Origin: Pyrinomonas methylaliphatogenes
Lineage (GTDB): Bacteria > Acidobacteriota > Blastocatellia > Pyrinomonadales > Pyrinomonadaceae
Direction: 5' to 3'
Length of the DNA stretch: 64,000 nucleotides
NCBI RefSeq assembly: GCF_000820845.2
Contig: NZ_CBXV010000001.1
Span: 248,001-312,000 of the forward strand
Below the pieces are notes generated by a model. That model saw only the letters and a list, made by a program, of their open reading frames with translations, did no database searches and was not told where the DNA came from. The position numbers and the translations under genes are program-made. The stretch's first letter is position 1, and the number at the start of each line of letters is the position of its first letter. Positions 34,843 to 41,172 of the stretch are shown here, one piece after another.

Positions 34843-37390
<2,548 letters not shown>

Positions 37391-37411
37391 GGGCGAGGTG
37401 AAGGGTTGAAG

Positions 37412-38257
37412 ATGAATGAGGCGACGGTTATGCCTTTCAGCGTCGGCGATGTGGTCTTCGGCGATGGACGGTTAACGGTCATCGCCGGGCCGTGTGTCAT
37501 CGAATCGCGCGAACATACTTTGATGCTGGCCCATGAGTTGCAGCGTCGCGCGCAGCGCGCCGGCCTCGATTTCGTCTTCAAATCATCTTTCGATAAGGCC
37601 AATCGCTCTTCGCATGAGAGCTTTCGCGGGCTCGGCATGCGCGTCGGTTTGGAGATTTTGCGCGCCGTGCGCGAGGAGACCGGAGCTCCCGTGACGACCG
37701 ACGTGCATGAGACAACGCAGGTCGAAGAGGTCGCTGAGGTCGCGGATATTTTGCAGATCCCCGCTTTCCTCTGCCGTCAAACCGATCTGATCGTGGCAGC
37801 GGCGCGGACCGGGCGCGCCGTCAACGTGAAGAAGGGGCAATTCCTCTCGCCTTACGATGCGCGCAACATCGTGCGCAAAGCGCGCGCTGCCGGTTGCGAA
37901 CGCCTCTTGCTGACCGAGCGCGGCACGACCTTCGGATATCACAACCTCGTCGTCGATATGCGCTCCTTCCCGATCATGCGCAGCTTCGGCGTGCCTGTGG
38001 TCTTCGACGTGACGCACTCCTTGCAACTGCCCGGCGGATTGGGGCATGCAACTGGCGGGCAAGCCGAATTCATCGAACCGCTGGCGCGCGCCGGAGTCGC
38101 CGCCGGAGTCGATGCCGTCTTTCTCGAAGTGCACGATGATCCGGCGCATGCCCCTTCGGATGGACCGAATATGCTGCCATTAGAGCGTTTCGAGCCGCTG
38201 CTCGAGATGCTTCGCGCGATCCATGAGTTGGTCCGCCGTAACGCTCCAGGATGGTGA
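37412..38257 (+). CDS. kdsA: 3-deoxy-8-phosphooctulonate synthase (Kdo-8-P synthase)
   Basis: 281 aa from ATG 37412 with AAGGG six bases upstream; a TTG at 37406 would add two residues. Family motifs: VIAGPCVIESREH, FKSSFDKANRSSHESFRG, TTDVHETTQVEEVAEVADIL, IPAFLCRQTDLIVAAA, VNVKKGQFLSPYDARNIV, LLTERGTTFGYHNLVVDMRS and VFDVTHSLQLPGG. It condenses PEP with arabinose-5-phosphate. Starts 21 bp after pyrG. Confidence 0.95.
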   Translation: MNEATVMPFSVGDVVFGDGRLTVIAGPCVIESREHTLMLAHELQRRAQRAGLDFVFKSSFDKANRSSHESFRGLGMRVGLEILRAVREETGAPVTTDVHETTQVEEVAEVADILQIPAFLCRQTDLIVAAARTGRAVNVKKGQFLSPYDARNIVRKARAAGCERLLLTERGTTFGYHNLVVDMRSFPIMRSFGVPVVFDVTHSLQLPGGLGHATGGQAEFIEPLARAGVAAGVDAVFLEVHDDPAHAPSDGPNMLPLERFEPLLEMLRAIHELVRRNAPGW

Positions 38258-38309: not shown

Positions 38310-40625
38310 ATGTTCCGCCTTTCACGCTCGGTTATGGTCATGAGGGGATGGGTATCTTCTTTCGTCATCATCTTCTTGCTCTTCGGCACAAAGGCGTTCG
38401 CTCAAGAGGAGGCTCGAGCGGCGTGGCAGATAATACGTTTCGAAGTCGCAGCGAGCGTCTCAGCGGCGACGCGCGCTTTGACCGTGCGGACGAAGCTCGC
38501 GGCGCGTAACGTCGGCCAGGGCGTCGGTCGCACTTTCACCGTGCGGTTGAATTCTGCGGCGCAAGTGAAATCGGCGTCCGTCAATGGCGCGAGCGCGACT
38601 TTCCGCTCGCGCGAAGAGCCGCGGACGAAGCTTCAGCAGACGACGGTCAATCTCCCGTCCTCGGTCGCGCCAAATCAGACGGTCACGCTCGAAATCGAAC
38701 ATAGCTTACCGGTCCAGCGGAACACGGGCTTGGCCGCCATCTCGCCGGAAGGCGCGCAATTCCTCCCGCTCGCTTTCTGGTATCCGATGCCGAACACGCC
38801 TTATTCCGCGCGCGGCGCTGATACGGCACCTTTTCAGTTGACCATCAGCGGTCTGAACGCGAACGAGAAGCCAGTTTCATCGGGGCGCGCTAACGGCAAT
38901 TCTTTCGACCAACCGCTTAACGCTCAACCGTTCTTCTTGACCGGGCGTTGGGAGGTGATCGAAGGCGCCGACGCTTCTCGTAACGTTAGCGCTTGGTTGC
39001 TCGCCGGTCCAACCGAGGAGGAACGGCAGGCGGCGGAGAGGCTGGTCAAACTGGCGAGTTCGGCGCGCGCTTTCTTTCAGGATCTTTTGGGGCCAGCGCC
39101 GGATGTGCCGATACGTCTGATCGCGGTTCGCCGCGGCGCCGGATTCAAAGATGGCGGGACACTGCTTTTGGAAGCCGCGGCGTTCCGTCGTTCGAAGATA
39201 GATTCATCGACCGCGCTGCTCATCGCCGAAACGGTCGCTGAATTGTGGCTCGGCGGCGCGACCCCGATCCGCGGCGAAGGATCGAGCGTGGTGCGCGAAG
39301 GGCTGGCGCGCTACTTGGCTCTGCTTTTCATCGAGAAGGAGTTCGGCAAGGAAGCGGCTGATGCCGAGCGCGACCGACAGCGGAGCGCCTATGCGGCTTT
39401 AGCGCGTCGCGATGGTCCGCTGTCGCAATCGTCGCCGCTCTTCGAGACGCATTTCGTCGCTGTGCCGAATAAAGGGGCGATGGTTTGGCGATTGGCGGAA
39501 AGAACGCTCGGTCGTGATGCGTTCTTGAGCGTCCTTCGCGCGCAATTGCAAGCCGGTCGCGAAAACGGCATCTCCTTATCCTCGCTTCGATCCGCGCTCG
39601 TCGAACGCGGCGGCGAGCGGCTTAAAGTTCTGCTCGATTACGAGTTGGATCAGCCCACCACCATGGATCTGCTCATCGGCTTGCCGCATCAGCAAGGGGG
39701 AGAGTGGGTCGCCGCTTTGCGCAACACTGGCCCAATCGATGCTTCGGTGACGGTACAGGCGACGACGGAGGGCGGCAAGAATCTATTGGCGGAGGCTGTT
39801 ATCCCAGCGCGAGATTTCGGCGAAGCCCGTTTCCGTACCGCGGAGCGAATCGCGCGCGTCGAAGTCGATCCGGAGAAATTCTATCCGCAGATAGATTACT
39901 CGAACGATGTCGCCCCGCACATGCCTTCAGTCGAAGAGGCTTTGAGCGAAGCTACGCGGCTTTTCACGCGCCAAGACTATGCGGGGGCGGAACGGATCGC
40001 CCGCGAGGGATTGTCGCGCTCGCCGCATGCCCAAGAGTTGCGTGTGATATTGGGGCGCGCGTTGCTCGCACAGAAGCGCTTGGATGATGCCGAACGAGAG
40101 TTTCGCGCCGTCATCGATGAAAAACTCCCAACCCCAGCCACCCTCTCTTGGGCGAACGTCGGTTTGGGAGAGATCGCTCTGCAAAGGGGGCAGACTGCGG
40201 AAGCCATAAAGCGTTTCGATGAGGCGGTCAGGAGCGAAGGACTACTCGCTGCCGTCATCGCGGCGCGGCAAGCGAGACTGCGCGCCGAATCTTCGCAAAG
40301 CTCGCCGCCGATCGATGAATCGGCGCGCGCTTTCTTCGCACAACTGGACCAGGCAATCAAAAGCGGCAGAAAAGCTGAGATCGAAGCGCTGATCATGCCC
40401 GGTGAGCTCAGCACGTTCGCCAGCGGGATCGTCGGCACGCAACCCGAACTTTGGCAAACGCATCTGTTGCGAACGGAACGCCAGAGCGGAGATCGGCTCG
40501 TCGCCGAAGCGACGATCAACGTCCGCGCGCTCGGACAGGAGAAGACCATCTCCGCCGTCCTTGTGCTCGCTCGCGCTGGCGCCGATTGGAAGCTCGTCGA
40601 AATACCCATCTTCGAGGAGCGCTGA
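38310..40625 (+). CDS. secreted M1-aminopeptidase-like protein with dead zinc site and TPR tail
   Basis: 771 aa from ATG 38310 (ATG 38334 also possible). An N-terminal leader (SFVIIFLLFGTKAFAQ) is followed by a beta-rich region like the M1 N-terminal saddle (residues 40-215) and an M1-like core. At residues 307-311 the zinc motif HExxH is replaced by ETVAE, followed by LWLGG where M1 enzymes have xWFGx; 18 residues later Glu330 in VREGLARY stands where the third ligand of HExxH-x18-E should be. The tail from about residue 560 has TPR-like repeats (ATRLFTRQDYAGAERIAREG, ELRVILGRALLAQKRLDDAE, EAIKRFDEAV) and an NTF2-like C-terminal region. It lies 52 bp after kdsA and 7 bp before kdsC, so it is probably part of the Kdo operon. 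A catalytic peptidase is unlikely; a scaffold or binding role is inferred. Confidence 0.75.
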   Translation: MFRLSRSVMVMRGWVSSFVIIFLLFGTKAFAQEEARAAWQIIRFEVAASVSAATRALTVRTKLAARNVGQGVGRTFTVRLNSAAQVKSASVNGASATFRSREEPRTKLQQTTVNLPSSVAPNQTVTLEIEHSLPVQRNTGLAAISPEGAQFLPLAFWYPMPNTPYSARGADTAPFQLTISGLNANEKPVSSGRANGNSFDQPLNAQPFFLTGRWEVIEGADASRNVSAWLLAGPTEEERQAAERLVKLASSARAFFQDLLGPAPDVPIRLIAVRRGAGFKDGGTLLLEAAAFRRSKIDSSTALLIAETVAELWLGGATPIRGEGSSVVREGLARYLALLFIEKEFGKEAADAERDRQRSAYAALARRDGPLSQSSPLFETHFVAVPNKGAMVWRLAERTLGRDAFLSVLRAQLQAGRENGISLSSLRSALVERGGERLKVLLDYELDQPTTMDLLIGLPHQQGGEWVAALRNTGPIDASVTVQATTEGGKNLLAEAVIPARDFGEARFRTAERIARVEVDPEKFYPQIDYSNDVAPHMPSVEEALSEATRLFTRQDYAGAERIAREGLSRSPHAQELRVILGRALLAQKRLDDAEREFRAVIDEKLPTPATLSWANVGLGEIALQRGQTAEAIKRFDEAVRSEGLLAAVIAARQARLRAESSQSSPPIDESARAFFAQLDQAIKSGRKAEIEALIMPGELSTFASGIVGTQPELWQTHLLRTERQSGDRLVAEATINVRALGQEKTISAVLVLARAGADWKLVEIPIFEER

Positions 40626-40632
40626 CCTGGCG

Positions 40633-41172
40633 ATGATGGGACGAGAAAGACTGCTGGATCGCGCCGCGCGAGTGCGTTTGCTTCTGATGGATTGCGATGG
40701 AGTGCTTACCGACGGGCGCATCTACCTGTTGCCGGACGGCGAAGAGATGAAAGCTTTCCATGTCCGTGATGGTCATGGATTGGTCATGTGGCATAGCGTT
40801 GGGGGGATCTCCGCGATCGTTTCCGGACGCTCATCTAAGGTGGTCGAACGTCGCGGGCACGAACTCGGCATAAGTTTCGTTCGCCAAGGAGTTGACGACA
40901 AGCTCGCGGAGCTCACGCGGATCTTGGCGCAGACGCGATTGAGTGCCGAACAGGCGGCGTTCATCGGCGATGATCTCGCTGATATTCCGCTCATGAAGCG
41001 AGTCGGGTTGGCCATCGCCGTGGCTGATGCGAGCGAAGAGGTGCGGCGAATCGCTCATTACGTTACGCGGCTTGCCGGCGGTCATGGTGCGGTTCGCGAA
41101 GTGACGGAACTCCTGTTGAAAGCTCAAGGCAAGTGGGCGGAAGCGTTGAATCATTATTTGGAAGAAAAGTAG
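40633..41172 (+). CDS. kdsC: Kdo-8-phosphate phosphatase
   Basis: 179 aa from ATG 40633 (40636 also possible). HAD-superfamily class C0: LLLMDCDGVLTDGRIYL with both catalytic Asp, GLVMWHSVGGISAIVSGRSS, VDDKLAELTRIL and FIGDDLADIPLMKRVGLAIAVADA, then RLAGGHGAVREVTELLL, which is the KdsC C-terminal signature. It removes phosphate from Kdo-8-P to give Kdo for KdsB. It completes the operon. Confidence 0.93.
   Translation: MMGRERLLDRAARVRLLLMDCDGVLTDGRIYLLPDGEEMKAFHVRDGHGLVMWHSVGGISAIVSGRSSKVVERRGHELGISFVRQGVDDKLAELTRILAQTRLSAEQAAFIGDDLADIPLMKRVGLAIAVADASEEVRRIAHYVTRLAGGHGAVREVTELLLKAQGKWAEALNHYLEEK

Follow-up and report, generated by a model that had tools for sequence, protein, structure and literature searches.

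A secreted M1 pseudopeptidase conserved across the Blastocatellia and usually encoded next to kdsA

Locus and domain organization

The window analyzed here, i.e., the whole stretch of 64,000 nt to which all coordinates without a locus label refer, corresponds to positions 248,001–312,000 on the forward strand of contig NZ_CBXV010000001.1 from Pyrinomonas methylaliphatogenes (GCF_000820845.2), and all features described in it lie on the plus strand. Four envelope-sugar and nucleotide genes were identified by NCBIfam: kdsB (CMP-Kdo synthetase, 34843..35712), pyrG (CTP synthase, 35708..37390), kdsA (Kdo-8-phosphate synthase, 37406..38257) and kdsC (Kdo-8-phosphate phosphatase, 40633..41172). Between the last two, separated from them by 52 bp and 7 bp respectively as a first-pass annotation of the sequence had described, is an ORF of 771 aa (38310..40625) which profile and fold searches assign to a secreted M1 pseudopeptidase with TPR and NTF2-like C-terminal parts. 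No terminator-like site was found in the gaps linking kdsA, the pseudopeptidase gene and kdsC, and a promoter-like site on the plus strand was seen near the operon start at one place only, upstream of kdsB. Translation may truly begin at codon 11 (38340) of this ORF, as all sequences in a six-sequence alignment of orthologues share the Met there.

The predicted protein opens with what reads as an ordinary signal peptide (38310..38402, predicted cleavage between AFA and Q, lipobox Cys absent), and a hydrophobic N-terminus is found in every orthologue shown in the alignment, supporting the secretion that had been proposed. This is followed by a beta-rich M1 N-terminal domain (residues 33–224, 38406..38981; hhalign to active M1 proteins and AlphaFold2 model), an M1 catalytic-like domain (residues 225–446, 38982..39647; profile search, hhalign and Foldseek), and a beta domain resembling M1 domain III (residues 450–518, 39657..39863; hhalign and model). 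The strongest conservation of the whole protein in the orthologue alignment falls on the stretch EVDPExxYPQxDYxNDxxP (residues 518–537, 39861..39920), located after the M1 domains and ahead of the TPR repeats (residues 541–645, 39930..40244; Pfam, profile search and model). The tail had been described as TPR, and the repeats are indeed there, but the last 100 residues belong to a separate NTF2-like domain outside them (residues 668–771, 40311..40622; AlphaFold2 and Foldseek). Folded alone, this domain gave a pLDDT of 79 and matched SgcJ, ketosteroid isomerase, LEH and designed NTF2 folds, with modest e-values (~3e-4 and up).

On the window protein alone, the Pfam M1 match is sub-threshold (13.3 bits vs. 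a cut-off of 27.7). At the family level, PF01433 was matched by 23 of 42 orthologues (best e-value 1.6e-6), a profile of these 42 sequences retrieved solved aminopeptidases N from the PDB (e-values 6e-8 to 1e-6, residues ~296–444), and an hhalign comparison with active M1 proteins from the same phylum reached a probability of 100 over 569 columns. A Foldseek search with the AlphaFold2 model returned M1 enzymes only among its best 50 PDB matches (aminopeptidases and LTA4 hydrolases, e-values ~1e-13 to 1e-11), with the whole-protein model (pLDDT 61, six sequences, low global TM) backing the fold and not the details of the cleft. The sole matches in a viral fold library were one M1-like protein and TPR proteins. 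A chance resemblance is thus ruled out by the family profile, hhalign and Foldseek, and the M1 layout noticed in the first-pass annotation is borne out: the protein almost certainly carries the M1 fold (domains I–III).

Loss of the zinc site

When aligned with active M1 proteins, the pseudopeptidase displays ETVAE (residues 307–311, 39228..39242) in place of HExxH, so that the first zinc His corresponds to E307, the catalytic Glu to T308 and the second His to E311, and only the third ligand is preserved as E330 (39297..39299), at the x18 distance already noted from the sequence; both hhalign and the alignment agree on this spacing and on these losses. PNKG (residues 386–389, 39465..39476) takes the place of YxKG, the catalytic Tyr motif, and, in the rows compared, a GFxxGGT-like turn stands where the GAMEN exopeptidase motif would be. 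Among 109 orthologues, none has HExxH at this site and the catalytic Tyr is kept in four and lost in 105, which makes the loss of the zinc and catalytic site close to certain; as far as the alignments can tell, the protein cannot be an ordinary zinc peptidase.

The replacements follow a pattern. Across orthologues, the first His position is E or D in 94/109, the catalytic Glu position A, S, G or T in 104/109, the second His position R or K in 100/109, and the third-ligand position E or D in 106/109 (78 and 28, respectively). The norm at the first two ligand positions is therefore E/D-x3-R/K, and 91 orthologues have an acid, a basic residue (R, K or H) and an acid at the three ligand positions, from which it looks as though the zinc had been replaced by an acid–basic–acid salt bridge. 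Glu at all three positions (E307, E311, E330) is restricted to the genus of the window (2/109). Positions 307, 308, 311 and 386 are only moderately conserved (28th to 63rd entropy percentile); W313, G315, G331 and the KG of the former YxKG motif are well conserved.

Compared with peptidase family M1 (PF01433, which includes aminopeptidase N, ERAP/IRAP and LTA4 hydrolase), the pseudopeptidase thus shares the three-domain fold along with WxGG, which frames the site helix, EG(L/F), on the third-ligand helix, and KGA. It differs in having neither HExxH, nor the catalytic Tyr, nor GAMEN, and in carrying TPR and NTF2-like domains where classical M1 enzymes have a helical C-terminal domain.

Selection, distribution and nearest relative

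Between two congeners, dN/dS is ~0.12 for the whole gene (dN 0.17, dS 1.44) and 0.09 for the M1 core (dN 0.14, dS 1.54), these dS values being near saturation. The sequence comparisons hence indicate that the gene is under purifying selection, with the catalytic loss fixed in all orthologues. At an e-value < 1e-30, it is present in 152 of 162 Blastocatellia genomes; the matches in G092 and G095 (e-value ~1e-30) are probably to a paralogue, so that the true total would be about 150/162. Nine of the ten class genomes in which the gene is missing also lack a full kdsA, as a single linked locus missing from a draft assembly would produce. Outside the class, searches of the phylum turned up remote relatives only.

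In a tree of the M1 core, built with the zinc-site columns left out, the kdsA-linked pseudopeptidases form a single clade (99/96), whose nearest neighbor is a protein from another class of the phylum (L137 in genome G152), recovered as its sister at 99/99, a placement less sure than this support implies since L137 is on a long branch. Over 532 columns the two are 25% identical, sharing M1 domains I–III and a VDPE..Q...ND..P stretch, but L137 keeps an intact zinc motif (HELSH...SEGL) and YQKG, and no TPR match was found in it. That the nearest outside relative bears HExxH points to a loss in an ancestor of the family rather than to local decay. Another possible relative, L138, was dropped, its tblastn match being absent.

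Linkage to kdsA and other Kdo genes

Within the Pyrinomonadaceae, 83 of the 85 testable loci have kdsA directly upstream of the pseudopeptidase gene in the same orientation, the two loci with enough flank but without kdsA (L049 and L053) belonging to one genus; kdsC, wherever it was found (81 loci), follows the gene in that orientation too. Among 43 other genomes of the class, 27 are kdsA-linked, 13 unlinked, and three cut by contig ends. The unlinked ones comprise ten genomes of a single family (f3) as well as G331, G499 and G500, in which kdsA was undetected and kdsB present. When 19 class loci outside Pyrinomonadaceae were inspected with 5-kb flanks, kdsA was adjacent in 13, kdsC in six and pyrG in two, which identifies the pairing with kdsA as the most durable link.

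Since kdsB was found in every genome checked and lpxC in 14 of 15, the LPS pathway does not seem to have been lost where kdsA is undetectable; a displaced Kdo-8-phosphate synthase is possible in G331, G499 and G500, and in G331 the gene (L122) comes directly after pyrG. In two f3 genera, the place of kdsA directly before the orthologue is taken by a gene for an M17 leucyl aminopeptidase (L110:3395-4888, from Pfam, and L113:3326-4828, judged by similar start and length). Elsewhere, several genomes of one genus encode a small secreted Cys-containing protein with a VCG motif (~165–180 aa) between the pseudopeptidase and kdsC (L069:4701-5243, L079:4749-5243 and L088:4775-5284).

Overall, gene order indicates that the link to Kdo genes seen in the window is old and real, with placement directly after kdsA as the ancestral state, and also that it is dispensable: it holds in most Pyrinomonadaceae and in much of the rest of the class, but not in family f3 or in the three genomes without detectable kdsA. 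These exceptions rule out a strict dependence on the Kdo operon, and a gene kept without kdsA alongside suggests a job that is independent of this operon.

A putative non-catalytic scaffold in the periplasm

Taken together, these observations make it probable that the protein is a periplasmic (secreted) M1 pseudopeptidase which has ceased to be an ordinary zinc peptidase and works as a non-catalytic binding scaffold. The former substrate cleft, with its zinc swapped for an acid–basic–acid salt bridge, would still hold a polypeptide, and the TPR and NTF2-like parts would serve partner binding or self-association. Made from one transcript in step with Kdo synthesis, the protein could then act in outer-membrane or LPS assembly. 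The durable link with kdsA favors such an outer-membrane role, and the persistence of the gene without this link favors a broader envelope role. The binding of LPS precursors put forward in the first-pass annotation received no direct support, and we hold an LPS-specific client or role to be rather doubtful.

A serious competitor, to which we would grant somewhat less than an even chance, is that the protein serves secreted proteins in general, as a periplasmic chaperone or an assembly scaffold, without a special tie to LPS; its gene would then have stayed behind kdsA as ancient synteny, maintained through a shared transcript. The gene is indeed class-wide whatever the location of kdsA, the M17 aminopeptidase gene adjoins the orthologue in two f3 genera, and no kdsA was seen within ~4 kb of the genes for related dead M1-TPR proteins in the phylum. 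Frozen synteny nonetheless explains poorly why adjacency to kdsA outlasts adjacency to kdsC and pyrG across six families of the class. Far less probable is an enzyme with a changed site, using either another metal at the three ligand positions or metal-free chemistry: E307, E311 and E330 could conceivably form a three-carboxylate metal site in the genus of the window, and the conservation of W313, G315, G331 and the old KG would suit a working site, but the general-base Glu, the catalytic Tyr and GAMEN are all gone, R or K is the norm at position 311, and the altered positions (307, 308, 311 and 386) are not specially conserved.

The possibility that an active M1 peptidase gene decayed locally, leaving a pseudogene-like copy in the window, has a negligible probability. 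The HELSH and third-ligand Glu retained by the closest relative outside the class are what such a history would start from; however, a survey of homologues for HExxH, suggested at the outset as a way to recognize local decay, found the site abolished in 109/109 orthologues, with intact frames and strong constraint on the protein. This survey and the dN/dS refute the decay scenario, purifying selection being sufficient to exclude it.

Returning to the non-catalytic scaffold, we know of no TPR or signal peptide in TAF2 or yeast Tma108, the closest precedents for such a use of this fold. TAF2, a subunit of TFIID, has a fold like that of aminopeptidases (PMC4309443), and Tma108, which retains most site residues and whose inactivity is uncertain, uses its substrate pocket to bind nascent chains (PMC11266112). 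Both resemble the pseudopeptidase in using an aminopeptidase-like fold for binding, which by analogy supports a scaffold role, but are eukaryotic and intracellular. In literature on Acidobacteria LPS genes, kdsA-pyrG operons and the Blastocatellia envelope, we found nothing on this protein. The M1 pseudopeptidases that we did find in the literature are eukaryotic, whereas here a whole bacterial class appears to have fixed one, usually in an envelope-sugar operon. It would be a testable candidate for an envelope-assembly factor in Acidobacteriota, a phylum in which the biology of the outer membrane has received little study. With an HExxH-bearing relative still extant, it would also offer a case in which to follow the passage from protease fold to scaffold.

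A second dead M1-TPR lineage

The tree also contains a second clade of dead M1-TPR proteins in Acidobacteriota (L145, L129 and relatives), separate from the kdsA-linked family. The two have in common a dead M1 part followed by TPR, with a profile–profile probability of 100 over 607 columns, but differ in their site replacements (RExxY..Q or NTxxH..N in the second clade); in the latter, no NTF2-like domain was found, and kdsA was absent within the ~4-kb flanks inspected. The best tree requires three changes to account for the dead states, which disfavors a single loss common to both clades, and forcing their union gave a p-AU of 0.064, short of formal rejection. From the tree, the second lineage is possibly of independent origin. 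It is tempting to speculate that the kdsA-linked family is one of two conversions of M1 into a TPR scaffold, yielding a class-specific non-catalytic outer-membrane assembly factor that would be co-transcribed with Kdo genes and act in the periplasm as a carrier or a docking platform, serving LPS or the machine that transports it, although we consider this full scenario unlikely.

One member of the second lineage is encoded in the genome of P. methylaliphatogenes itself (L145:8772-10787, on G000:C8). Its site reads RExxY and Gln in place of HExxH and Glu, and related proteins occur widely across the phylum.
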